This document shows, one piece after another, positions 2,344-20,829 of a DNA stretch of 43,145 nucleotides. The position numbers and the translations under genes are program-made. The stretch is from contig JAQWTJ010000108.1 in assembly GCA_029242765.1 (NCBI GenBank), positions 1 to 43,145 on the forward strand, in the 5' to 3' direction. Position 1 is the first letter of the stretch, and each line of letters starts with the position of its first letter. The DNA comes from Flavobacteriales bacterium (lineage in GTDB: Bacteria; Bacteroidota; Bacteroidia; Flavobacteriales_D; Sanyastnellaceae). The notes below the pieces were generated by a model. It had not been told where the DNA came from. It did not search any database and saw only the letters and a program-made list of their open reading frames with translations.

Positions 2344-2793
2344 TCAGTCCACCTTGAACCAGCTTTGGGTGCGGTAGAAAAACGCCACGTAGCCCCGAAC
2401 CTGCATCACATTGGGGTCGTCCTCACTAATCCACATCTTGCAATCGTAAATCTTACCGTTTTTCGGGTCGCAAATCGTACCGGAATCCCATTCACCATCA
2501 TCTGGCTTCATGTCTCGGACGATGTCCATCCCCAAAGTACGCTGGCCTTTGCGGTCGTCTTTACATTCATCGCAATGCGGGTCTTGGTCCTCTTCTGGGA
2601 GACGAAACAGCTCGACAATCGTGCCAGTTAACACCCCGTTTTCAACCGTGACCTCCACCACACTCTTGATGCGCCCTGTCTCATCGTCTTGAGTCTTCCA
2701 ACGACCGGTCAAATCAGGAACTTGGGCCCAAAGTGTCATCGAGGCGCAAAGCATCATCGCTAATAGCGACGCAGAGAGTTTCAGTTTGTTCAT
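2344..2793 (-). CDS. DUF2147-family secreted protein
   Basis: A 149-residue protein. The first 24 residues form a signal peptide (hydrophobic LLAMMLCASMTLW followed by AQ, the usual Bacteroidota cleavage context). The mature part follows the DUF2147 pattern: GRWKTQDDETG at the start, a central GTIVELFRLP strand, a CDECKDDRKGQ loop with two cysteines, MDIVRDMK, then GTICDPKNGKIYDCKMW and RGYVAFFYRTQSWFKVD at the end. This is a small lipocalin-like periplasmic or outer-membrane-associated family of unknown function. The ATG at 2793 is chosen although the frame stays open to 3066, because it begins exactly at the signal peptide. It is the last gene of a minus-strand run, 47 bases after the YihY fusion gene, and probably shares its transcript. 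It converges on the flippase gene. Confidence 0.85.
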   Translation of the reverse strand: MNKLKLSASLLAMMLCASMTLWAQVPDLTGRWKTQDDETGRIKSVVEVTVENGVLTGTIVELFRLPEEDQDPHCDECKDDRKGQRTLGMDIVRDMKPDDGEWDSGTICDPKNGKIYDCKMWISEDDPNVMQVRGYVAFFYRTQSWFKVD

Positions 2794-2840: not shown

Positions 2841-5621
2841 TCAGCAAGAAGAGCCAAAAAGACCGAGCCACACGATCAAGTCCGCCACATTCATCGCACC
2901 GTCCCCGTTGAGGTCCATTGTGCAATTGCTCGTGCAGCCGAAGGCCCCAAGCATGGCCATTAAATCTGAAATGCTCACCGCGTTGTCCCCGTCGAAATCT
3001 CCAAGACATTCCACGCAAAAATCCGAGTGCACCACCACCTCGGCCCAAGCAATATCTACGCCCCAAATCTCATCGGGCACATCGACCACCATCGGCCCAG
3101 CTTCGGTCACCGGCACGCCGTTCCAAAGCAGTGGATTGGCCAAATCCTCGAGGTCCTCGAGGCAGACCTCAAGCCATTGAACTTCGAGGTCCAAGACGAA
3201 CAGGCCGCGTTGAATGTCCGAGATTAGCACGCGCCCCGAAGGCAAAGCCGCATGCACGCCCCAAGCACCAGCGTAACCGCTGTGATTGTCGGGCGGGTAG
3301 GTGTCGAACCAAGCAATCAGGTTAGGATTCTCCGGGTCATGGATATCGAACACCTGCAATCCATCGTGATAATAGGAGACATACACCCGTTCATCGCGGA
3401 TCATCAAATTGTGGGCGATCGCGTTTTCCGCTGTGCCCGAGCTGAACATTGACACCACCTGTAAATCCGTGAGGTCCGACGTGTCCACAACCTTCAACGG
3501 AGCACCGTGCGTTTCATCCGCAAAAACATAAACTTCATCCTCGGGAACCCACCAACCGCTGTGGTTTGCGCCCTGTTCAGGGTAATCCTCCAAGGTGCCA
3601 ATCACCACCGGTCCGCTCTGCATGCGGATGACAATCAAGCCGCCGCCCATGGCGTTAACCCACAGCGTATCGTTCTCAGCATACACATCATGGCAGCCGC
3701 TGACCCAAGGCGCAAGATCAAATATCTGAAATGGCGCCGACGGGGTGGCGACGTTTAGAACCATCAACGGCGTTGAGAGACCGGGGCGGCTCATGTTGCA
3801 CAAATAAAGCAGGTCAGAAGCGTTGTCCACAAACACATTGTGTGCGTTGACCACCAGCTCGTCGTCATCGTAAAGCGTCGTCACGCTTGCGGGCAGCCCA
3901 GAAAGATCAAAGATCTGGAGCGAGCTTGTGCCTTGGTCGCACACGGCATACAGCACCGTGTCGTCAATGTGGTAATCGCGATGCGTGACCCCGCTCCCAC
4001 CGTATGCACCCGGCAGGAAGTAAACCTCCGGCGCATCTCCCGGTTCCGTCACGTCAATCACATGGGTGCCCATCGTCGAACCGATGATGGCGTACTCGCG
4101 GCCGTTCAAAAACAAGCCCTCTACATCATTGAAACTCCCTCCGAACCCTGTAATCGGAAGCGATACGTCTGTCCACTGAGCGTAGAGGTTCACATTGTCC
4201 GACTGCCGTGTGCACGAGCCGTCATCTAGGCCAGCACTCGGATTGAAATTCATCGCATCGGGGTTGGTGCAACCGGGGTAGTCGCAATCGTCCGAGAGCG
4301 AAAAAAAGAACGAATCCTGTGCACCTGGTGGGCTGTCGAGAAAGCCTGACGCCATCGGCTCGCCGCCCTCATCAAACATCGTGAGCACCCCGCCTTGCCA
4401 TCCGTCGCCGTAGCTGTCAAACATCCACACGATGTAACATCCCGGTTCCATGCAAAGTTGTTCGGTGTAGCTCGTGAAATTGTCGGTGTACGGACCGAAG
4501 GGGCCGGCCACCACATTGGCCGATTCATCCTCAATGAGCCAAGTCACCTCGGTGGCCCAGGTGCCCGTGACCATCTCAGCGGTGACCTCCACTTGTTTGC
4601 ACGTTTGAGCGTACAAGAGCGTGGATTGCGGAGCGCCAGCCAGCCCGAAAGCCAGCAGCAACGCGACGGCCTTGACCGCCTTGGACCTATTCGCACCCTT
4701 TGAGCTTGGAGCTGACGAAATTGAACGGGCCTGCCGTGAACTGTGCAGGCTTGTGTTCAACTCAAAGCCCAGCAACAAAATCATACTATTGGCATTGAGC
4801 CAAATGAGCAAAACCAGCAGCGTCCCCAACGAACCGTACAAGCGGTTGTAAGAAGCAAATGAAGCAACGAACCAAGCGAAAGCCATCGACGTCAAGACGA
4901 ACAATGCGGTACTCATCACAGCACCGGCGCTGCGCCATTGCCATTTCTTTCTCGAAAAATCTGCGACGTTGTACAAGATGGTGACGCACCCGTACACGAG
5001 CAACAACGTGATGCCCCACCGGGCAAGCTGCAAGAGCGGGAGGCTGGCCACGTCGACAATCTGTTGGGCCGCTAGCCAATCCAAGGCCGTCCCGCTGAAT
5101 ACGATGAGTCCGACGGCCACAATGACCCCAAGCGATAGGACGATCATCAACAGCACCGCAACCAATCGGATCCACAACCAATGCACGCGGCGCTGGACAT
5201 GAAACCCCTCGTTGAGCCCCAACAATATGGCGTTGATGCTGGACGAGGCGTAAAACAAACTCAGCACAAATCCAATGCTCAAAACTTCGCTGTGGGCGCC
5301 GTTGAGCAGCAAATCCTCCACGGTGGACTCAAATAGAGAAAACGTGTCTCCGGGAAAGAAACCACGGATTGATTCAAAGAGCAGGACCTGGAAATTTTCG
5401 ATGGGCACCACCGGCAGCAAAGACAGCAGCATCAAAATAACCGGAAAAGTTGCCGCGAAAAGACGAAAGGAAATGGCCGCAGAACGCGTCGCCACCCGCC
5501 CTTGGATTAACCCCTCGATAAAGAACTGAACAGGCGTCCAAATTTTGAGGCGCTCAAAAATGAAGATTATATACTTGAGCGGTGTCCTCCGCATCCACTG
5601 TTCCCATTCAAGGTCTTTCAT
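2841..5621 (-). CDS. YihY/BrkB membrane domain fused to exported LVIVD-repeat (choice-of-anchor B) and dockerin-like domains
   Basis: A 926-residue composite. Residues 1-290 are a complete YihY/BrkB-type inner-membrane domain with about six membrane segments, ending in the usual LLVLLIWLNANSMILLLGFELN. Residues 291-316 are a polar linker. Residues 317-339 look like a signal peptide (AVALLLAFGLAG, then LLYAQ, a plausible signal peptidase context). Then come a module with GCY and DSYGDG motifs (~350-440), a Cys-rich CTNPDAMNFNP/DDGSC motif, LVIVD/choice-of-anchor B repeats (~475-820), and two EF-hand-like dockerin repeats (DFDGDNAVSISD and DLNGDGAMNVAD) at the C-terminus. YihY proteins normally stop near residue 300. 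No in-frame ATG or GTG occurs at the junction; the only nearby alternative starts are TTG codons, for example at 4760. The start overlaps the nadC stop (ATGA), suggesting translational coupling. It may be a real fusion, two products from an internal start, or an assembly error. Confidence 0.8.
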   Translation of the reverse strand: MKDLEWEQWMRRTPLKYIIFIFERLKIWTPVQFFIEGLIQGRVATRSAAISFRLFAATFPVILMLLSLLPVVPIENFQVLLFESIRGFFPGDTFSLFESTVEDLLLNGAHSEVLSIGFVLSLFYASSSINAILLGLNEGFHVQRRVHWLWIRLVAVLLMIVLSLGVIVAVGLIVFSGTALDWLAAQQIVDVASLPLLQLARWGITLLLVYGCVTILYNVADFSRKKWQWRSAGAVMSTALFVLTSMAFAWFVASFASYNRLYGSLGTLLVLLIWLNANSMILLLGFELNTSLHSSRQARSISSAPSSKGANRSKAVKAVALLLAFGLAGAPQSTLLYAQTCKQVEVTAEMVTGTWATEVTWLIEDESANVVAGPFGPYTDNFTSYTEQLCMEPGCYIVWMFDSYGDGWQGGVLTMFDEGGEPMASGFLDSPPGAQDSFFFSLSDDCDYPGCTNPDAMNFNPSAGLDDGSCTRQSDNVNLYAQWTDVSLPITGFGGSFNDVEGLFLNGREYAIIGSTMGTHVIDVTEPGDAPEVYFLPGAYGGSGVTHRDYHIDDTVLYAVCDQGTSSLQIFDLSGLPASVTTLYDDDELVVNAHNVFVDNASDLLYLCNMSRPGLSTPLMVLNVATPSAPFQIFDLAPWVSGCHDVYAENDTLWVNAMGGGLIVIRMQSGPVVIGTLEDYPEQGANHSGWWVPEDEVYVFADETHGAPLKVVDTSDLTDLQVVSMFSSGTAENAIAHNLMIRDERVYVSYYHDGLQVFDIHDPENPNLIAWFDTYPPDNHSGYAGAWGVHAALPSGRVLISDIQRGLFVLDLEVQWLEVCLEDLEDLANPLLWNGVPVTEAGPMVVDVPDEIWGVDIAWAEVVVHSDFCVECLGDFDGDNAVSISDLMAMLGAFGCTSNCTMDLNGDGAMNVADLIVWLGLFGSSC

Positions 5622-6511
5622 GCGTGGCGAGATTTCAGAGCCTTGTCACTCAACAGGGAAATATCCATATTCCGCGCGCTGTGCGTGATAAACCCAAGCG
5701 AGACGAAGTCAACCCCCGCCTCGGCGTAGGGCCGAATGTTTTCAGGGGTCAGCCCTCCGGAGCTTTCCGTTTCGATTCGGCCGCCGATGAGCTCGACCGC
5801 CTGGCCGGTTAGCGCAGGCGAAAAATTGTCGAGCAGCAGACGCCTGATGCCTGTGCAGCACAAGGCTTCCTCTACTTCGGTAAGATCCCGAACTTCGACA
5901 ATCAGGTCGATGCCCAAGTCGTGTTGGTCGATATACGCCGCCGCATTTTCTACGGCAGCTCGCAAGGAGCCGGCATAATCCACGTGGTTGTCCTTGATCA
6001 TGATTGCGTCATATAGACCCATGCGGTGGTTCACCCCGCCCCCGTGCAAAACGGCGAGTTTCTCAAAAGCACGAAGGCCCGGGGTCGTCTTGCGTGTATC
6101 AAGCACCCTCGTTTTCGTGCCTTCAAGAGCCTGGACCGCGCGCGCCGTATTGGTGGCGATGCCGCTCATGCGCTGCATAAAGTTCAACGCTATTCGCTCA
6201 CAGGTCAATAGGCTACGGCCGGGGCCTTTTACACGGGCCACAATGTCACCGGCCGCAACTGCGTCACCGTCACGTGCGAGCTCCTCAAACTCCGCCTCGG
6301 GCGCACCGAAAGCAAAGACCCTTCGGGCGACCTCAAGGCCAGACAACACACAGCTCTCCTTCATCATAAATCCTGCCGAATCCCAAACTTCAGCAGGAAT
6401 ACTCGAGGCCGAGGTGTGGTCACCCTGCATTTGCACTGCAACAAGACCTCGGCCGAGGTCTTCGGCGAAGGCAAGCTCAATGAGTTGTTGCATATGGGGG
6501 TGACTTGGCAT
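5618..6511 (-). CDS. nadC: Nicotinate-nucleotide pyrophosphorylase (carboxylating), quinolinate phosphoribosyltransferase
   Basis: A 297-residue enzyme that converts quinolinate and PRPP to nicotinate mononucleotide, CO2 and pyrophosphate in de novo NAD synthesis in the cytoplasm. Characteristic segments are present in order: FAEDLGRG near the N-terminus, ERIALNFMQRMSGIAT, VLDTRKTTPGLR, AVLHGGGVNHRMGLYDAIMIKDNH (active-site His, Arg and Lys residues), IVEVRDLTEVEEA, LLLDNFSP, and ESSGGLTPENI with a C-terminal phosphate-binding stretch. The start at 6511 is preferred; 6493 is an alternative that removes six residues. The frame extends upstream to 6580, but that would overlap rlmH and lacks family similarity. 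It is divergent from rlmH and overlaps the YihY-fusion gene by four bases; the rlmH/nadC/yihY neighbourhood is common in Flavobacteria. Confidence 0.95.
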   Translation of the reverse strand: MPSHPHMQQLIELAFAEDLGRGLVAVQMQGDHTSASSIPAEVWDSAGFMMKESCVLSGLEVARRVFAFGAPEAEFEELARDGDAVAAGDIVARVKGPGRSLLTCERIALNFMQRMSGIATNTARAVQALEGTKTRVLDTRKTTPGLRAFEKLAVLHGGGVNHRMGLYDAIMIKDNHVDYAGSLRAAVENAAAYIDQHDLGIDLIVEVRDLTEVEEALCCTGIRRLLLDNFSPALTGQAVELIGGRIETESSGGLTPENIRPYAEAGVDFVSLGFITHSARNMDISLLSDKALKSRHA

Positions 6512-6544
6512 GGGATACGAAGCAAACAGCAAGTTAATGCACGC

Positions 6545-6552
6545 TACATTTG
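6545..6552 (+). promoter_or_regulatory. Bacteroidota-type -7 element (TACATTTG) for rlmH
   Basis: An exact match to the Bacteroidota housekeeping -7 consensus TAnnTTTG lies 15 bases before the rlmH ATG. No clear -33 TTG is seen at the usual distance, so the call rests on the -7 motif and its position in a short divergent intergenic region. Confidence 0.45.
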
Positions 6553-6567
6553 AAACGCTCCAACGGC

Positions 6568-7041
6568 ATGCGCATTTCACTTATCGTCATCGGGAAAACG
6601 GACGCGCCATGGCTGCGTGAGGGATTGGCTGTCTACACCGATCGGCTGGCGCGTTACGCACCCTTTCGATACATCGAGTTGCCCGACGCTCGGCTCCGTG
6701 GCAAACCCTCACCCGAGGCCTTGCGTAAAGCTGAAGCTCCCATTTTACTCAAATCCCTTGAGAGCGTAGACCATGTCGTGCTACTCGACGAGCGCGGGAA
6801 GCAGTACCGCAGCGTCGAGTTGGCCCGGTGGGTGGAATCGCGGCACAATCGCGGCATCCGGCATTTGGCACTGGTCATCGGCGGGGCCTACGGTTTCGAC
6901 GGCAGTGTTCACGCACGAGCGTCAGAAAAATTGGCGCTTTCCGCCGGAACCTTCAGCCACCAAATGATCCGGCTTCTGGCGGCAGAACAACTCTACCGCG
7001 CGCAGAGCATTTTGCGCGGCGAGCCCTACCACCATGAATAG
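6568..7041 (+). CDS. rlmH: 23S rRNA (pseudouridine1915-N3)-methyltransferase
   Basis: A 157-residue SPOUT-class methyltransferase that methylates pseudouridine 1915 in helix 69 of 23S rRNA on assembled 70S ribosomes, using S-adenosylmethionine. The length is the family's usual. Seen are the N-terminal MRISLIVIGKT strand, VDHVVLLDERGKQYRS, the knot region LALVIGGAYGFD, and the near-invariant C-terminal SHQMIRLLAAEQLYRA and ending YHHE. The ATG at 6568 begins exactly at the conserved N-terminus; an upstream in-frame TTG at 6550 is less likely. It stands alone on the plus strand between divergent nadC and convergent atpC. Confidence 0.97.
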   Translation: MRISLIVIGKTDAPWLREGLAVYTDRLARYAPFRYIELPDARLRGKPSPEALRKAEAPILLKSLESVDHVVLLDERGKQYRSVELARWVESRHNRGIRHLALVIGGAYGFDGSVHARASEKLALSAGTFSHQMIRLLAAEQLYRAQSILRGEPYHHE

Positions 7042-7339: not shown

Positions 7340-8913
<1,574 letters not shown>

Positions 8914-8988
8914 TCACGTATTCCACTCCCGATTTATACACGTATTTCCAATAGTCAGGAATTTGCACTAACAGGTTGTGAAAATCCG

Positions 8989-10608
8989 ATGTTTCTTTGC
9001 CTAGAAGTGAGGATTCATAAAGGACTGCCCGGTTTCAAGGATGGTGTGCATCGCGTGGTGACATCGGGCACTTTTGACGGGGTGCATTTGGGCCATGGGG
9101 CGCTTCTGAAGTGGGTGACGGATAGGGCCCATTCCAAGAGCGGCGAAAGCGTCATTCTCACATTCGACCCACACCCCCGGCTGGTGCTATTCGGCGAAGA
9201 TTGTGGGCTCGCCTTGATTGACACTTTGGACGAGCGACTCGAACGGCTCGCCAAGGCCGGTGTCGATCATGCCGTAGTGGTGCCTTTTGACCTGGAATTC
9301 TCGCGAATGCATCCCGTGGATTACGTCCGCAGCGTGTTGGTTGAGGGCGTCGGGGTGGGCACCATCGTCGTCGGACACGACCACCGGTTCGGAGCGGGCC
9401 GGGAGGGGGACGTCGCGCTGTTGGAAGAATGCAGCGAGGCCTTCGGTTTTTCTGTTGAGAAAATCCCCGCCGAGATCATCGACCAAGTCACCGTCAGCAG
9501 CACCAAAGTGCGAAAAGCTTTGCAAGGAGGAGACGTGGAGCTCGGCCAAAGGTTGTTAGGTCGGCCTTTTGTGATGCGTGGCACTGTGGTGCGTGGCGCC
9601 GGTCTGGGCCGAGAATTGGGCTTCCCCACGGCCAACCTCAAGCTGAACACCCTCCTCAAACTCATCCCCGCCGTGGGTGCTTACGCGGTGACAGCGCGCC
9701 TGCTCGACACGGTCAATTCACCCGGACCAAATGACGATCAGGCCCTGGGCGGCATGTGCAACATCGGGCACCGCCCCACCGTTTCCGAGGAGGGAACGCT
9801 TCAAATTGAGGCGCACCTATTCTTGGATCAGCCCATCGATTTGTACGACCGCCCAATTGAACTCAGTTTCCACACCCGCCTGCGACCCGAACAGAAATTT
9901 GAGGGGCGCCCGGCGCTTGTGGCGCAACTTGAAAATGATCGGCACCGCGCCTTGAAGGCCCTCCGCTCGCTTGGGCTTTCGCTCGTGCGCACTCTCACCA
10001 TCGCTCTGGTCGCTTTGATCGGCACCAGCCAGCCCAAGGCGCTGGCCCAAACCACCGATCCAATTCCAGCAACCTGGTCCTGGGACACCGCACGGGTTTA
10101 CACCGACTATGAACAGGCCCTCGCTCGCCCTGAACGTGTTATCCGCCTGGACCTCACGCGGGACAAACTTCGGGAACTCGACCCGCGCATCGGCCGATTC
10201 TCACAGCTGCGCGAACTCGTTTTGGATCGCAACAAGCTCGGTGCATTGCCCCAAGAATTGCGCTTCGTACACACGCTCGAACGCATCAGCGTCAGCAGCA
10301 ACCGCTTGGAGTCGTTCCCTCAGGTATTGCTAGAGCTCAAAGGGCTCAGAGAAATTGACCTGTCGGACAATGAAATTGAGGACATCCCCTTGAACATCGA
10401 CCGGATCAGCCGTCTTGAAAGGCTTATTCTATGGGGCAACATCATCGCAAATTTCCCCGCCACGCTTAGCTCAATTGACAGCTTCACCCACCTCGATTTG
10501 CTGCACAACGAAATGACCCGTGTCGAGCAGGAATTCTTAAAAACACTGCTGCCCGGCGTTCACATCGAGCTTTCCCCGCCGTGCTTATGCAACTTTGAAA
10601 ATGAGTAA
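8989..10608 (+). CDS. ribF: Bifunctional riboflavin kinase/FAD synthetase fused to signal-peptide-like segment and leucine-rich repeats
   Basis: A 539-residue composite. Residues 1-328 form a complete RibF: VVTSGTFDGVHLGHGALL (nucleotidyltransferase GxFDGxHxGH motif), VILTFDPHPR, VVGHDHRFGAGREGD, STKVRKALQGGDVE, then the riboflavin kinase domain with GRELGFPTANL, VGAYAV and MCNIGHRPTV. It phosphorylates riboflavin to FMN and adenylylates FMN to FAD in the cytoplasm. Instead of stopping, the frame continues into VRTLTIALVALIG and KALAQ (333-354), a textbook signal peptide with ALA before Q, and about five to six 23-residue leucine-rich repeats (LDLTRDKLRELDPRIG, LVLDRNKLGALPQEL and so on), ending in a Cys-containing tail. 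A GTG at 9985 could start the exported part independently. The ATG at 8989 is chosen because the RibF domain starts there; the upstream open frame to 8815 overlaps atpD. It overlaps the next gene by eight bases. Confidence 0.88.
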   Translation: MFLCLEVRIHKGLPGFKDGVHRVVTSGTFDGVHLGHGALLKWVTDRAHSKSGESVILTFDPHPRLVLFGEDCGLALIDTLDERLERLAKAGVDHAVVVPFDLEFSRMHPVDYVRSVLVEGVGVGTIVVGHDHRFGAGREGDVALLEECSEAFGFSVEKIPAEIIDQVTVSSTKVRKALQGGDVELGQRLLGRPFVMRGTVVRGAGLGRELGFPTANLKLNTLLKLIPAVGAYAVTARLLDTVNSPGPNDDQALGGMCNIGHRPTVSEEGTLQIEAHLFLDQPIDLYDRPIELSFHTRLRPEQKFEGRPALVAQLENDRHRALKALRSLGLSLVRTLTIALVALIGTSQPKALAQTTDPIPATWSWDTARVYTDYEQALARPERVIRLDLTRDKLRELDPRIGRFSQLRELVLDRNKLGALPQELRFVHTLERISVSSNRLESFPQVLLELKGLREIDLSDNEIEDIPLNIDRISRLERLILWGNIIANFPATLSSIDSFTHLDLLHNEMTRVEQEFLKTLLPGVHIELSPPCLCNFENE

Positions 10609-12739: not shown

Positions 12740-15700
12740 TTACTGCGTCAAATTGAAACGCAAGGCCACCCCTGTCTTGACATTCGTCGTCGCAAAGGAC
12801 GTCGACACTTTCGGGCGGGTGAGCTGCTCATCAAAGAAGAACTGCAAAATCAGTTTCTTCGAGATTTCCAGGTCAGCCGAGAACTTGATGCTGATGATCT
12901 TCTGACCGGCCGTCACCTGATTCTCGCGGCCGTCATCCGTCCCCCCAATCGATCCGTCTACGGCGAGCGGGTCGAGCTTGCGAATAATCGTCGCATTGTC
13001 CCGAATCGTTACGTCCATCCGCATCACCAAATCCGTATGCTGAAGCATTTGTATGGGCAGCTTACCCCGTGTGCGCAGAAAGGGGTTGGGGACATTCGCA
13101 ATCCGGTATCCCAATCCCATCACGAAACTCGAGCTCTTTGTTTCCGTGATCTGATTGTTCGTCAGTCCGAAATTGACGGTGCGATCCCGGCGCATTTCAA
13201 CCTTCACCTGCGGCTCGTTTTCTCCATCCGTCTTAATCGTCATATCCACGCCGATAAGCGGAGACATTTGCTCGGAAATGGTCACCTGGTTGTACTGTCG
13301 CTGCGTGATATAGTTGCCGAAGCTGCTCTGGTCAAATTCAGTGGGCAAGCCCGTTTCGCTCTCCACGTAAGAAAGGTTGGTCACGTACGAGGTCGACATC
13401 GTGGAGCGGTAACTGTGCGAAATTGAGCAGCGCTTCAAGCGATTCTTCAGCAGGGCGCCTTTTGTCAGACCGTTGTACGTCACGCGCCAGTTGGGTGCCA
13501 TCTGCGTCTTGAACGGATCGAGGCTCACCTTCGTGGCGTCCTGGCCCGTATAGGCCGCAATGAACGCGGGGATGGTCACCGCTGAACTCGTAGGCCCCCA
13601 GCCCTCGTAGTAACCGGTGGGTTCCGGATCATTGAGGTTGTAATGGGCTTCATTCTGGCGCTCTGAAATATCCAAACGTGCCAATTTGAAATCCTGCCAC
13701 GTCTCACTGGAATAGTCATCAGCGTCCTCTACAAAGGCCGTCGGCCAGGACAGAATGGTCGATGTAAAATTGCCAGTATTCTGTGGCGATTGGAAAGACC
13801 AATCCCCCAAATCCTCGTCAAACCGGAAGAAGCTCTGCAAGTCACGGCTCTCAGTGCGCGTTCCATTCAATTCCACCTTGAAGTCTTTGAACGGCTCAAG
13901 CGTGGCCCGAAAATTTGCATTGGAGCTGAAGTTCTCCATGTAATTCTGATTCTGGTTCGGGTTCGCCCAAAGCCATCCCTTATCTGCCGCATCAAGTGCG
14001 AAGTCGCCCACCTTTTCACCGTCAAGTCCCGTGTTTTGGTGTCCCAAAAGGAAAGGGATGCCAGGCGATTCAAACGCATCGTCCATACCAGCCCAACGCG
14101 CCTTGCGTGAAGAAGCAAAGCCTGGCACCAGCAGCCCCTCATTGCGCGAGTAACTTCCGCTGACATTGCGTACAGACATCATCGCCTTGAGCACGAAAGT
14201 GATGGGGTCGATAATCAGCTCCGGTTTGTCCTTCTTCTGGTCGATCTCATTGCCGAAGCCGTCGCGGTCCTCATTGTCGATATCGTCTTCTTTCGGCTTC
14301 TTGTCCCTGCGCTTGCCGTCGTTGATGTCCTTGAGGAAGGGGACGGTGTTGTACAGCGAAAGCAAATTGGCCTGCATATTCAAACTGACGTTGCGGGAGT
14401 TCTGCACCGTATGGCCAAGTGAATCCTGGGCAAAGGGCGCACGATCCCAACGGTACGTCGCTTGGTAACGCACATCGGCCGAAACGAACTTGATGAGCGG
14501 GAACTTGTCGAAGGGCAGTTTATAGCTCGCTGTTATTTGATGGTCGTAGGTTGTGACGTCGCCAAAGCTCTCGAGATTGGTCAAAACTGTATCGCGATAC
14601 TGGTTGTACTCGTCGGTGCCCTCAAGCGCGATGACCCCCGACGGCTCCCCCACCAAGGCCGTAGCATGGCCGTTGTAATCAAATTTCAGTGACCGCGTCA
14701 AATCGTACTTGACCCGGTAGTCCCGATCCCAATTCCACTGCTTGAGCACCTGGGTGTTGATCAGTACCCCGGTCTCAAATCCGAGCAAGGCCGCCGTGTT
14801 ATTTCTGACCCGGCTCGTCTCATACGTGCGGTCCATCGTCGTGCCTATCGAGATCTGTTTCAAGCCCGGGTAAAAATTGAAGTCGGTGAGCCACCTGAGG
14901 GCCTCTGAGCGGCTGAGGCCTTTAAAAGGCTTGAACTCACTAGGGCGACCGTTGTAATCGTAGCGAAGCCCCCCGCGATAGTTGCGGCGAATGTTGAACT
15001 CCGTGTTGATGTCCCGCTGATAGTTTTCAGTGTAGGCAAAGTTTGCCGAGAGGTTGCCGGGGTCCATAAAGGAGAAGAACCCGCCATTGCTTGAAGAACC
15101 TCCGCGTCCTGTGGGCCGGCCTCCACGGCCTTGCTGCGCCTGCATTTCGCGGTCCTTCGTCACATCGTCCGCCCCACGCATCCGTTCTTTGGTTGCCGCC
15201 GCTTCATCCGCCTTGCGCTTCTTATCCTTTTTTCCAGATCCGCCAAGTTGAGGGTCAATCTTGATGCTGGAAAAGTTGACGCTGCGAATGCGGTTGATGC
15301 TCTGAGAATTGCGCTTTCGTTCGGTTGTTAAGTTCCGATCGGCCAATTCAATGTCTGGGGAAAGCGGGTCGAACTGTGGGGTGCTCACGGTCTCACTGTA
15401 GCCCAAGTAGAGCGGCAGCTGCACACCGAGAAAATCAGGCAACAGCTTGCCGAGTTGAATCGTGGCGTTGGCGTCGACACCTTGGATGGTCTCGCGCTGG
15501 CGCTCTTGGACGCGCTGCTCCAGCCCGCCCCAACCTGGGGTGGACATGTTCGCTGCGACATTGACGTGACCCAAATCGCTCAGGGTGGCGTTCATCTGCG
15601 CGGTGGCCGCCCAGCCGCCTTCCTCATTGAACTCCGAAAGGCGCAGCTCATTCGCCCACACCACAGCGCATTTAGGCTGGCCGTCGTCCTCGGCAAATGG

Positions 15701-18700
15701 GTTGTCATCTCGATCCAGGTTGCGAACGCCAATCATCACCGTCACCACGTTGGCCAGGTTCGGGTTGCCCTTCACCGTAATGCGCGCCGTTTCGTCGAGT
15801 TCACTGTACGCTTGGAAAAGCGGGTAACCAATCGGCCGTGACAACTTGAGATTTTGGAGCTTTCGGAACTCAATGTCGATGGCATTGGCATCGGGCCAAA
15901 TCAAATTTGGATCGCCAGTGTACCACGGGGTGACCTCCAATGGAATCTCATACTCGTAATAGTTGTCGACGAAATCCGAGCCAAGGCGGATGAAGCAGGA
16001 CAGGTCGCCGGTCTCCAGTGGCATGTCAGCGCGGGCCTGCTCCGCGTGGACGAACATGCGAAGGCGCTTGTACATCCGCATGTCGTAGTTGATGTTGCGG
16101 TAGGCCGCGCGGGCATCGCCGTCTTGCAAATCGCAAATCTCCAACGAGAGCGACTGCTCGTTCAGCTGGGCCTGATTAGCCGTTGCCACATTGATCTCCC
16201 GGATGATGCCAGGCGGTGTGACATAAGAAATGGGCTGGCGTTGGCCGTTTTCCTCGATGCTCACCGCAGAAATCGCAAAGGTGGTCGAGGCCGGGTCGCC
16301 CGGCTCAATTTCTTGCGGTCCGGCCAGCGAAGCCTCGAACTTGCGCCACTCTCCTCGAATCAACTCCAAACGAGCAAAGCGCATCGTTACCGGCTGGCTC
16401 CAGCCCGTCATAAACATCCGCATAAAGCGCACCGAGCGAAAATCTGAAATGCCTCCGACCGCCTTTTCAAACGATCGCACGGGAATCTTAAACTGCAACC
16501 AACGGATCTCTCGCTCCTCCCCATCGGGCGTCTCCACACTGGTGAGCAAAATGTCAGTGAGGTAATTGCGGCCAAGATTGGCCTCCGTCAATTCCGCAGG
16601 GCGCATTGAAATGCGGTACTGGAAGTAGCTCTCGATTGAGTTCAAGGTCAAATCTTGGTTGATGTCCTCGGTGTTGGGCAAGGTGGTGGAGGCGATGGGG
16701 TAAGCATCGGGCTGGGCCGTGTTCGAATTGCCCTCGTAACCATTGAATCGTTTGTACCGCTGCAAGATGTCCTCCTCGGCGGCTTGGGCTCCCGGATCGC
16801 GGAAGTAGCGGAAGTCATCCGCCGACGGGTCGGCCTGAATCGCCGCCAAAGCCTCGGGGCTCAACTGGCCCTGCAAACCGGTGAGCCAATCCGCAAAGAA
16901 AGCCGTCTCTTCGGTCGTGTTCATCCCATCCAGACCCACGTCTTGCATGGCGTAATCACCCGTGGAATTATCGAAGGCATTGACCACGTTGAAGGTCGTA
17001 GGGTCAGGCACCAGGCCCCAGTTGGTCTCAACAGTGGGCGCATCTTGGTTGGCCGAGGGCAGGCCGTTCTCAAATCCGAGTTGCCCGTCATTCAGGACAT
17101 CCTCAGAAATACTGCCCAAATTGAAATAGAGGTCGCCCCCGGAAGAATTCTGCGAATCCTCATGGAAGGGGTCCATCATCCAAACTTGGATGTACTCCAC
17201 GTTAGAAGACTCAAAGTCGGTGGTGATCAGTGCGCGTTGGACACCGCCCCAGCGCTCCTCCGGAACGAGTAGCGCACCGTCGGTCGATAGACCTGCCACA
17301 GCGCCAGAACCCTCTGCCGGAAGGTAGTTGTACGGCCCGCGCTCCTGCGGGTAGAACGACAAATCAAAGGTCGGCAGGTTCTCCGGCGTACCAAAAGGCA
17401 GCTCACGCAGCGGAAACACCTCGGATTGGCGCACCAAGCGCATGGCATGGTCCGAGCGCACCTCGGGCGTCACCTGGCCGTCGTCCAAGCCGTTGTTGCT
17501 GTAGAACGATGGATCGATGGTGTACCACGCCAATTTCGCTCTGTTGTAATTGTAATAGAGGCTGTCCTCAAAGTTGCCCTCTGGGAACAAGTCCGGTTGC
17601 AACTTCGGCGTGCTGGCCAAATGCCACTGCGTCCACGAGCGAATATCTATGGCGCTTTGCGACCCCTCAAAGTCGTCAACATAGGCATTGCCCTCCTTGC
17701 CCACCGCCTTACTGTGGCCCGGAATCAAGTAGGCCGCCTCTGCACTCAGGCTAATGCTCGATGGCGCACTGGCGTCATAGAACGGAATTTTATCCAGCAC
17801 ATCCGTCAAAAATTGAGACGACCGCGTCAGGGCAAAGTCACCACCAAAAATCGTGTTATTCACCGGCTCATCACCAACATTCACCTTTTGTGTCAACGGG
17901 CGTTCGCGCATGTTCAAAAAGGTGAAACCCAGCGCAACATCCTCGCTTGGTGAATAGTCGAAACGGGTGCCAATCAGAGTCTTGGTCTGGATATTGAACA
18001 GCGAATTGCTCTCGAGCGACACCTTGATGGGCTGGCCCGATTCCATCAGGCCGTCGTTGATGATACGCACCCGGCCCAAGTTGTAGTCCACCGTGTAATC
18101 GCGATTCTCAATCAAGCGCACCCCACCCGAAGTCACAGTCACCGATCCCTCAGGGATGTTGAGCGCATTGAGCATGATTTCCGAGCTAATCTGGCTCTGG
18201 TACTCGCCCTTGATGCGGAAACGGTTGAGCGAGGGCATTTGTTGGGCCGCCGTTTTCGTGCTGTCATATAGAGGCTGGTAGACGATGGTCTGAATTAAGG
18301 CTTGCGCTTGGGCCGGGTCATCCACGCGATCCTCAATCTTCCCGCGCAGTGTGCCGCCAAAAGGCTCAACAGTCGGGAAGAATACGCGACCGTTCTGGCT
18401 GTGTATCGTGCCGCCGAGCGTCGCTGCATTATCGATATAGTCAAATACGCCGTCAGGTTGGGCTTGGCCGTTGATGTCGATCCGGTCCATGTCGAGCAAC
18501 TGCATCAACAGGTCGCCTTCGAGCGGCTCACGTGGTATGTAATTCAAATCCACGCCCGTCGCCGGATCATTGTACCAAATGCCGAGACGGAAATTCTCTG
18601 CGCTGAGTCCAAACGCCCCCAAGGAATACACGTTTTTCATCATCAAGTCCCAAAGCGGTGCGGTATCACCATTCTCCAAAGAAACCCGCGTCACGCTGCT

Positions 18701-20230
18701 TTTGAGCATTTTCAAAAGCAGAGCCCCCGGAGCCGCGTAACCGTCTTGAGATAGCGTGCCGACTTGGTAAGTTTCACCGCCGAGGGTGTACTCAAAGGCC
18801 ACGCCGAGCACTTCGGCATTGTTCAAGGATTGACGCAAGGAGATGAAGCCCAACTTATCGTTGTACGTGAACTCCGTTGAGGTCAAACGACGCGCGTTGC
18901 CCACGCGTTCATAATGAATGCCCGGTGAGTAGATGGGTTGGCCGTCGGTGCCCACAAAACTAGCGATCGCCGCATTGGCTCCGCTAAAATCCATAACGGA
19001 CGCATTGCCCGTCATGTCCATGAAAATTTCATTGTTCGCGTTGTCCGGATTGCGCGAGACTGTAACGCCAAGGTCCGGGTCGTCGGTCAAACTTGAAATG
19101 GGCAAGTCCGTTGACATGTTATCGGGGTGCTCGCCGAGGTCGGTGAAAGCGATGACGTTGCGCACGTCTTGGGTGTTGGCCTGTATGTTGACGATGTACA
19201 CCTCAATGCGGGTAATCCGAGCAGGCGAATTCACCACGGGCAAGTTCTGCATCGACGCGTCGTATGTGTCGCGGAAATATTGGCTCAAGAAATAGTGGCG
19301 ATTCGCCTCATAATCGTCAGCGCGGATGTCGAACTCTTGCTTCTGCGCACCGCCCTCAACATCGATCTCCTTGCGCTCACCCTTTTGCTGAGAAAACACC
19401 GTGGAGTTGTACACCTTGCCCCACTGCGTCTCGAGTTTCACCCCAAAAAGGCTCTGGCTGCCCTGAATCAACGAACTGTTCAACGGAAGCGAAATATTTC
19501 CCGCCTCTACATTTTTCAAAATATCATCTTCCTCACCCTGGAAACCGATGTTCATTCTGTTCTCAAAATCAAACGTTGACTCGGTGTTGTAATTGGTGCC
19601 AATATTGATCTTATCGCCGATGCTTCCATCAATTGAAAGCTGGATGCGCTGGTCGTAATCGAAGGTGGTGATCGCCCGGTCCTGTTCGGCAAGCCGTGGA
19701 TTGTCCGTCTTGGAATAGCGCGCGCCGACATTGATTTGCGCCGACCCCTGCGGACGAATTTCAATCTCGTTCGAACCAAAGAGCGTCTCAAAAATCTCAG
19801 AATCAATCGTCAATTTTGGAGCAAACGCCCGACTTGCCTCGTCCTCCTCTTCTTGAATTTCGTCCCAATATTCGCTGAGGTTCTGGTCAATATTGTAATC
19901 CAGAAATTCATCGAGCGTCCAGAATGTGGGGTTGCGAAAATCGAGCGTATCGCCCAAGCGTTGTCGAATGATGTACCAGCCTGTGGTGGGGTCGAAGTCC
20001 ACGCCGTATTCCACAACATCAGGCCAATCCAAACTCACGCCGCCCGGCGTTTCCACAACCACATAGGGGTCTTCACCGTGGGGCAGAGGTAAATCGATGG
20101 TGTCCGCAAAAGCCGTGCCCCCCCCGTCTGCACCGTCTTCAGTTTGCGCCCACGCCGTTGTGCTTGCAGGGCCAGCAATCAGCAGGGCCAGCATCGCAGT
20201 AACTTTGCAGAAGGTGTTAAACAAGCGCAT
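12740..20230 (-). CDS. sprA: SprA (Sov), type IX secretion system outer-membrane translocon
   Basis: A 2496-residue protein, about the size of SprA of Flavobacterium johnsoniae and Sov of Porphyromonas gingivalis. Residues 1-29 are a signal peptide ending in AWAQ. Early family segments include [30 protein letters not shown] and the repeated [44 protein letters not shown] lies mid-protein; the C-terminus alternates beta-strands and ends in ALRFNLTQ. By family knowledge it forms a giant 36-strand barrel through which proteins with C-terminal sorting domains cross the outer membrane, and it is needed for gliding. Charged low-complexity loops occur near residues 1664-1717 and 1965-2010. The ATG at 20230 lies five bases after the ruvA stop; a TTG at 20239 is a weaker alternative. 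It belongs to a tight operon with maeB, ruvA and gcvH. Confidence 0.97.
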
Positions 20231-20235
20231 ATTGG

Positions 20236-20829
20236 TCAAAGTCGTTTCAGGGCTTCTTTTATCAAAGGCTCAACACCTTGGACGCCGGCCTTCATGGCTG
20301 CACCCAACACCGCATCGACCCGCTTTCGATCAAATCCCAGCGAACACAATGCAGCCAACGCATCACGCGCTTCCGTATTGTGCACTGCCCCTGTAGAACT
20401 TGCCCCCCCCGGTTCCCCCGTCCACGCCTCGCCGCCGAATTTGTCCTGCAAGTCAACGACGATGCGCTGCGCCGTTTTAGCGCCGATGCCCTTGATGGCC
20501 TTCAACGCAGCATCGTCTCCGCATTGTATCACGTGCACCACCTCGCCGGGGTCCATCCCGCTGAGAATCATCCGCGCTGTCTTCGCCCCCACCCCGCTCA
20601 CACCGTTGAGCAACACAAACAAATCGCGCTCGGTTTTGTCGTAAAAACCGAACAGCAATTGGTCGTCTTCTCGATACACCGGGTGGATCAACAAGCGACC
20701 CGCGGCCAGCGTCGAAATTTTCGAATACGTTGTAAGTGACACGTGCACCATATAGCCGACGCCGCCGCACTCCACCACCACATGAGTGGGGGTCTTCTCA
20801 ACGAATTTGCCGACCAAATGATGGATCAT
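20236..20829 (-). CDS. ruvA: Holliday junction branch migration protein RuvA
   Basis: A 197-residue DNA-junction binding protein that holds Holliday junctions in a tetramer and loads the RuvB motor. Seen are the N-terminal OB domain ([23 protein letters not shown] region and YREDDQLLFGF), two helix-hairpin-helix motifs (LNGVSGVGAKTARMIL and IKGIGAKTAQRIV), a flexible linker near residue 140 containing a Gly/Pro run, and the small C-terminal RuvB-binding domain (DALAALCSLGF). The ATG overlaps the maeB stop by four bases (ATGA). Its partner ruvB is 20 kb away in this window. Confidence 0.97.
   Translation of the reverse strand: MIHHLVGKFVEKTPTHVVVECGGVGYMVHVSLTTYSKISTLAAGRLLIHPVYREDDQLLFGFYDKTERDLFVLLNGVSGVGAKTARMILSGMDPGEVVHVIQCGDDAALKAIKGIGAKTAQRIVVDLQDKFGGEAWTGEPGGASSTGAVHNTEARDALAALCSLGFDRKRVDAVLGAAMKAGVQGVEPLIKEALKRL

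Follow-up and report, generated by a model that had tools for sequence, protein, structure and literature searches.

FbcH, the cytochrome b/c1 precursor of Bradyrhizobium japonicum, combines a polytopic protein, an internal signal and an exported domain, and its cleavage by signal peptidase has been shown. The locus described here, in which a YihY/BrkB membrane protein runs in frame into an LVIVD-repeat protein (YihY::LVIVD), resembles FbcH in placing a polytopic membrane protein, an internal signal peptide and an exported domain in a single chain, here as predicted from sequence. However, the products of FbcH are subunits of one complex and their separation has been demonstrated, whereas the YihY and LVIVD halves have no known link (a search of the literature on the two found no functional connection) and their cleavage is a prediction.

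A second comparable case is the aerotolerance operon, in which BatB and BatC are fused in Leptospira biflexa and not in pathogenic leptospires (PMC3557215). There, as here, an inner-membrane protein is in frame with the next exported protein and the two are separate in relatives, but the Bat partners share a pathway and are ancestral neighbours, whereas YihY stands next to the LVIVD protein in this genome alone. What is new here is the identity of the fusion partners, the lack of a known pathway shared by them, and the occurrence of three joins of this type within the scanned portion of one genome.

Each half also has described counterparts. The exported half occurs as a stand-alone secreted protein of the TIGR04312 family in other genera of the same family (L033, L034, L038 and L039), where it is 54-58% identical, has its signal at the same position and carries a dockerin-like tail; those proteins, unlike the one described here, have their own start codon, two DSYGDGWQGG domains rather than one, and no yihY gene beside them. 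The membrane half is reminiscent of extended YihY proteins (the ribonuclease BN/unknown domain fusion PRK04214, and frames of 430-555 codons in Bacteroidota), which also consist of a YihY core with a C-terminal addition. In those proteins, however, the addition is short, and the fused protein matches PRK04214 with only 42 bits against a cut-off of 500.

In the window (the whole stretch of 43,145 nucleotides of DNA that was analysed, from a marine bacterium), positions 2841-5621 of the minus strand form a single open frame of 926 codons with zero internal stops. This frame and its neighbours comprise the following features:

5618..6580, minus strand: nadC, the upstream neighbour, with a 4-base overlap with the yihY start (PF01729/PF02749)
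4722..5621, minus strand: YihY/BrkB part, residues 1-300 (PF03631; six predicted membrane helices, positive-inside loops)
4671..4751, minus strand: polar and basic linker, residues 291-317, ending RQARSISSAPSSKGANRSKAVK, predicted to act as n-region (codon score; AlphaFold pLDDT)
4608..4670, minus strand: h- and c-region of the signal peptide, residues 318-338, AVALLLAFGLAGAPQSTLLYA, with cleavage predicted before Q339 (internal-signal scan; signal position in homologues)
2841..4607, minus strand: exported part, residues 339-926 plus stop, with one DSYGDGWQGG domain, LVIVD/choice-of-anchor B and a dockerin-like tail (homologues 54-58% identical)
3192..4133, minus strand: choice-of-anchor B (LVIVD) region, residues 497-810 (TIGR04312)
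2844..3008, minus strand: GC-type dockerin-like C-terminus, residues 872-926 (NF041540, cut-off 29; scores of 22.4 to 29.2 bits)
2344..2793, minus strand: DUF2147 gene, found downstream of yihY in the ancestral layout and carrying an ATG and a signal peptide of its own (PF09917, 97 bits)

The original prediction that no stop separates YihY from the exported domains is borne out, and profile HMMs find both halves intact. A profile search of the protein recovered a complete YihY/BrkB domain (PF03631, residues 41-294, 161.3 bits against a cut-off of 33.7), the match to TIGR00765 reaches 85.9 bits (cut-off 73.15), and this half is 49-56% identical to the YihY proteins of relatives. YihY had been expected to stop at about 300 residues. 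This is the rule within the order, where the protein ends soon after the domain (about 300-330 residues) and the present frame instead continues to 926; it is not the rule elsewhere in Bacteroidota, where YihY frames often reach 430-555 codons, all of them far shorter than 926 among the matches listed. The choice-of-anchor B region scores 157.3 bits with TIGR04312 (cut-off 100). Proteins of this kind would be expected to carry an N-terminal signal peptide right behind a start codon of their own, and in the fused protein the signal-like segment is internal. The signal-like segment with its LLYAQ and the LVIVD repeats are as first described, while the dockerin is weak: the GC-dockerin model NF041540, with a cut-off of 29, scores 22.4 bits when the protein is scanned and 28.8/29.2 bits when the genome is, and PF00404 gives E=0.075.

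Hydropathy places six YihY segments at residues 54-286 and a seventh at 318-336, and the successive loops contain 9, 1, 3, 1, 4, 1, 6 and 1 lysine or arginine residues. This alternation agrees with an N-terminus inside, six helices, a cytoplasmic basic linker, a seventh helix and a C-terminus outside. An AlphaFold model of the fused protein (20 rows, mean pLDDT 71) is helical over residues 1-302, unconfident over 304-339 (pLDDT <50) and beta-rich over 342-864, with dockerin-like helices at the end. By sequence-based prediction, the frame has the FbcH-type build of polytopic protein, cytoplasmic basic stretch, internal signal and exported domain.

The junction reads ...GFELNTSLHSSRQARSISSAPSSKGANRSKAVKAVALLLAFGLAGAPQSTLLYA|QTCKQ..., with the codons given in the original prediction and with the out-of-frame TAG that it placed at 4687-4689. 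Its linker has the lowest codon score of the 822 24-codon windows of the fused frame, as expected of former intergenic DNA that is now translated. Codon use over this single short stretch is only suggestive of such an origin. The linker is homologous neither to YihY nor to the exported family, and the G+C3 of both the YihY half and the exported half is that of the host and neighbouring genes. An open, in-frame junction is by itself not improbable, given one frame in three and about 25 codons. What lifts this junction above chance is that relatives always have a stop here and that the exported half begins exactly at the signal peptide.

In the congeners, the yihY stop lies 6-18 codons past the conserved LNT motif (11/11 loci), and among relatives generally it is found 4-43 codons past the conserved YihY end. 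A small DUF2147 gene with a signal peptide of its own directly follows yihY in all 11 congener loci, after a gap of 9-38 bases and mostly in the same frame, and nadC precedes yihY wherever the locus reaches far enough upstream. The window has the same order and orientation, nadC-yihY::LVIVD-DUF2147, so that a choice-of-anchor B gene is placed between yihY and DUF2147 in this genome. A chimeric contig was ruled out, given that both ancestral neighbours flank the insert, and recent foreign import was rejected in the absence of any jump in G+C or G+C3. It had been proposed that close relatives with the same junction divided by a stop codon would speak against a fusion; the congeners were found to have yihY, a stop and DUF2147, with no LVIVD gene anywhere, so that this objection does not apply as it was worded. 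Most congeners (L004-L014) have 9 bases between the yihY stop and an in-frame DUF2147 ATG, an arrangement in which losing that one stop would link a secreted protein to an inner-membrane protein.

None of the 16 other genomes of the genus carries the exported half. In the stand-alone homologues the N-terminal signal peptide falls where the window protein has residues ~313-338. No second YihY::LVIVD fusion was found among 17 genomes of the genus, 114 of the family and 399 of the order, nor among 23 strong homologues from GTDB contigs, and yihY was not found beside a homologue of the exported half within the fetched flanks of 23 records (e.g., L003). The viral contigs searched gave distant domain matches only.

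We consider it probable that this is a real stop-loss gene fusion encoding one precursor, in which an internal signal peptide would export the C-terminal half, probably to be released by signal peptidase I. What is observed is that the genus has the operon nadC-yihY-stop-DUF2147 and that in this genome the choice-of-anchor B gene lies in the yihY frame, with no yihY stop and no ATG or GTG of its own. In the proposed scenario, the ribosome would produce a single 926-residue precursor, and YihY would insert in the membrane with both ends cytoplasmic. The basic linker and the hydrophobic segment would then serve as an internal Sec signal, with its N-terminus inside and its C-terminus outside, exporting the C-terminal 588 residues. 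Signal peptidase I may cut at LLYA|Q, so that YihY would keep a seventh helix and the LVIVD/dockerin protein would be freed. As the signal peptide would restore two products after translation, the loss of the stop could be tolerated and the old start codon would be free to decay. This explanation is supported by the frame with both halves intact, the stop in relatives, the signal position in homologues and the occurrence of the same build twice more.

The original prediction had left a choice between a seven-segment polyprotein whose exported half could be released by signal peptidase, two proteins made by way of an internal TTG start, and a lost stop. The first is now the best supported, given the alternating loop charges and the two further joins in the genome. 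A lost stop describes the history well, as relatives keep theirs, but it is not the whole of the change, since the exported gene has lost its start codon as well. The internal TTG fails as a source of two separate proteins: yihY has no stop and would be translated through, and the equivalent TTG in a second fusion, RibF::LRR, is not conserved in the sister genome G003.

If the fusion is real, it may also be left uncut, in which case the seventh helix would hold the LVIVD/dockerin protein at the inner membrane, making it a periplasmic domain of YihY. The length and hydrophobicity of segment 318-336 (1.65 over 19 residues) are sufficient for it to remain a helix, and the charge pattern is compatible with a polytopic anchor. 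Nevertheless, we regard this as unlikely, because the c-region PQSTLLYA|Q fits the usual signal peptidase I pattern of the group (...SVSAQ, ...SMHAQ and ...EAASQ in neighbours and homologues), the homologues are all free secreted proteins, and the dockerin-like tail is kept, as in other exported proteins of the genome.

The start codons near the junction bear on another possibility, that one frame yields two products, the full-length fusion and a shorter secreted form begun in the 3' end of yihY. The junction had been described as lacking any in-frame ATG or GTG. This holds between the YihY end and the signal-like segment, where neither codon was found in frame, but the interval so described also includes an ATG at codon 280 (4784-4782), within the last YihY helix (helix 6). 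Other candidates are TTG 288 (4760-4758), TTG 282-283 and ATT 301, and an in-frame start at ATG 280 or TTG 288 could give an extra short-form product. Such codons exist (ATG 280, TTG 288 and ATT 301), homologues of the exported half in other species start with GTG (L057/L059) or TTG (L055/L068), two have no ATG, GTG or TTG before the signal peptide, and in RibF::LRR a GTG upstream of the signal in the window genome (G000) aligns with an ATG in G003. On the other hand, ATG 280 and TTG 288 fall in the last helix of YihY or at its conserved end, the TTG in RibF::LRR is a CTG in G003, and internal initiation could not replace the fusion, as translation of yihY continues in the same frame. A two-product frame therefore seems improbable to us, and we favour the single processed precursor.

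The second fusion lies a few kilobases away in the window:

8815..10608, plus strand: RibF (9007-9960), internal signal peptide and leucine-rich-repeat (LRR) exported domain (Pfam)

Here the frame of the riboflavin kinase/FAD synthetase RibF passes without a stop into ...RSLGLSLVRTLTIALVALIGTSQPKALA|Q and then into the LRR domain. The two are likewise fused, with no stop, in G003 (L142), an independent assembly of the closest congener (69% identity), whereas nearly all other relatives have RibF and LRR side by side as two genes. In G093 the arrangement is RibF-TAA-9 nt-ATG-LRR with both genes in one frame, so that a single stop loss gives the fusion. Between the window and G003, identity is 75% for RibF and 71% for the LRR part and only 33% for the signal region, although both signal regions are hydrophobic and end in AAQ or LAQ. 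This suggests that the function of the signal, and not its sequence, is conserved. The TTG of the window frame at which a separate LRR protein could begin is the one replaced by CTG in G003; given the aligned GTG and ATG, an internal start may provide an extra short product in this fusion as well.

These observations are relevant to a sequence or assembly error, in which a base missed by the assembler, or an allele that has decayed in one population, would mask an ordinary yihY stop and exported-gene start. The chief weakness of the fusion reading is that the YihY::LVIVD junction rests on one assembly, a draft of 110 contigs, and the assembly of the sister G003 lacks this stretch. A two-gene layout could be hidden by 72 of 420 possible insertions, 8 of 105 deletions and 1 of 315 substitutions at the junction, as bare counts, and the linker codons look non-coding. 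However, the flanks keep the ancestral order nadC-yihY-...-DUF2147, so that it is not a chimera, the contig carries very long intact frames (SprA, 2499 aa), G+C3 is uniform, and RibF::LRR, of the same build and on the same contig, is confirmed by the independent G003 assembly. We therefore consider such an error very unlikely, and continue with a real, processed fusion as the preferred explanation.

A third join was found elsewhere in the same genome (G000:C61, L202:14136-16082, plus strand), where a Wzx-type flippase runs through GGAAAALGMLLALGSPELSG|Q into a small exported protein that matches no Pfam family. In G013 (L244) the two are separate: the flippase terminates in ...LKTRWSDRV-stop, and the ATG of the secreted gene follows 34 bases further on. 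In G003 (L279) the flippase has its stop and the secreted gene is gone. The halves of RibF-LRR and of the flippase join are adjacent and separate in relatives, as in neighbour-gene fusions of the BatB-BatC type, whereas for YihY and LVIVD no such adjacency was found within the fetched flanks of the 23 records. The internal-signal scan used stretches representing 62% of the genome, so there are at least two joins of this build beyond YihY::LVIVD in that part. Several other frames (L196, L153, L240, L241, L231 and L203) were discarded, being either cytosolic proteins or over-extended frames that have a proper ATG, and L243 (G028) was set aside because its frame length is misleading and its halves are in different frames. 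When G000 was compared reciprocally with 354 kb of G005 in search of fusions, antisense frames and repeat proteins dominated the result. The congener G005 has BatB (VWA), a signal and BatC (TPR) in one open frame (L268:15927-18020, minus strand), which keeps an internal ATG, unlike the YihY::LVIVD junction.

More tentatively, the signal peptide might act in this lineage as a self-excising linker. Stops between genes for cytoplasmic or inner-membrane proteins and genes for secreted ones would be lost repeatedly, starts would decay, signal peptidase I would take the place of the stop, and part of the secretome would exist only as C-terminal halves of YihY, RibF and the flippase, which are housekeeping proteins. 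We see this as possible rather than probable. Gene callers and topology predictors presume an N-terminal Sec signal peptide. If the fusions are real and processed, secreted proteins would be hidden inside annotated membrane proteins and enzymes, equal translation would be forced on two genes, and stop-codon loss would have a benign route dependent on signal peptidase. YihY::LVIVD offers a testable case of operon neighbours fusing with both functions kept.

Some further features of the exported family deserve mention. In two species (L071:4932-5010 and L074:4932-5010), the homologue opens right after a TAA with TTA CCT TTA ATA ATC AGA AAA ..., and these are the two without ATG, GTG or TTG before the signal peptide, which suggests a rare ATA or ATC start codon. 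Orthologues of the exported half alternate between dockerin-like and T9SS tails (the end of L071 is T9SS-like by eye), and the window genome has GC-type dockerin-like C-termini in 14 frames beside 64 T9SS sorting tails. The outer-membrane translocon of the type IX secretion system, SprA/Sov, is encoded at 12740-20239 on the minus strand (TIGR04189, 2351 bits), so this bacterium possesses such a system.
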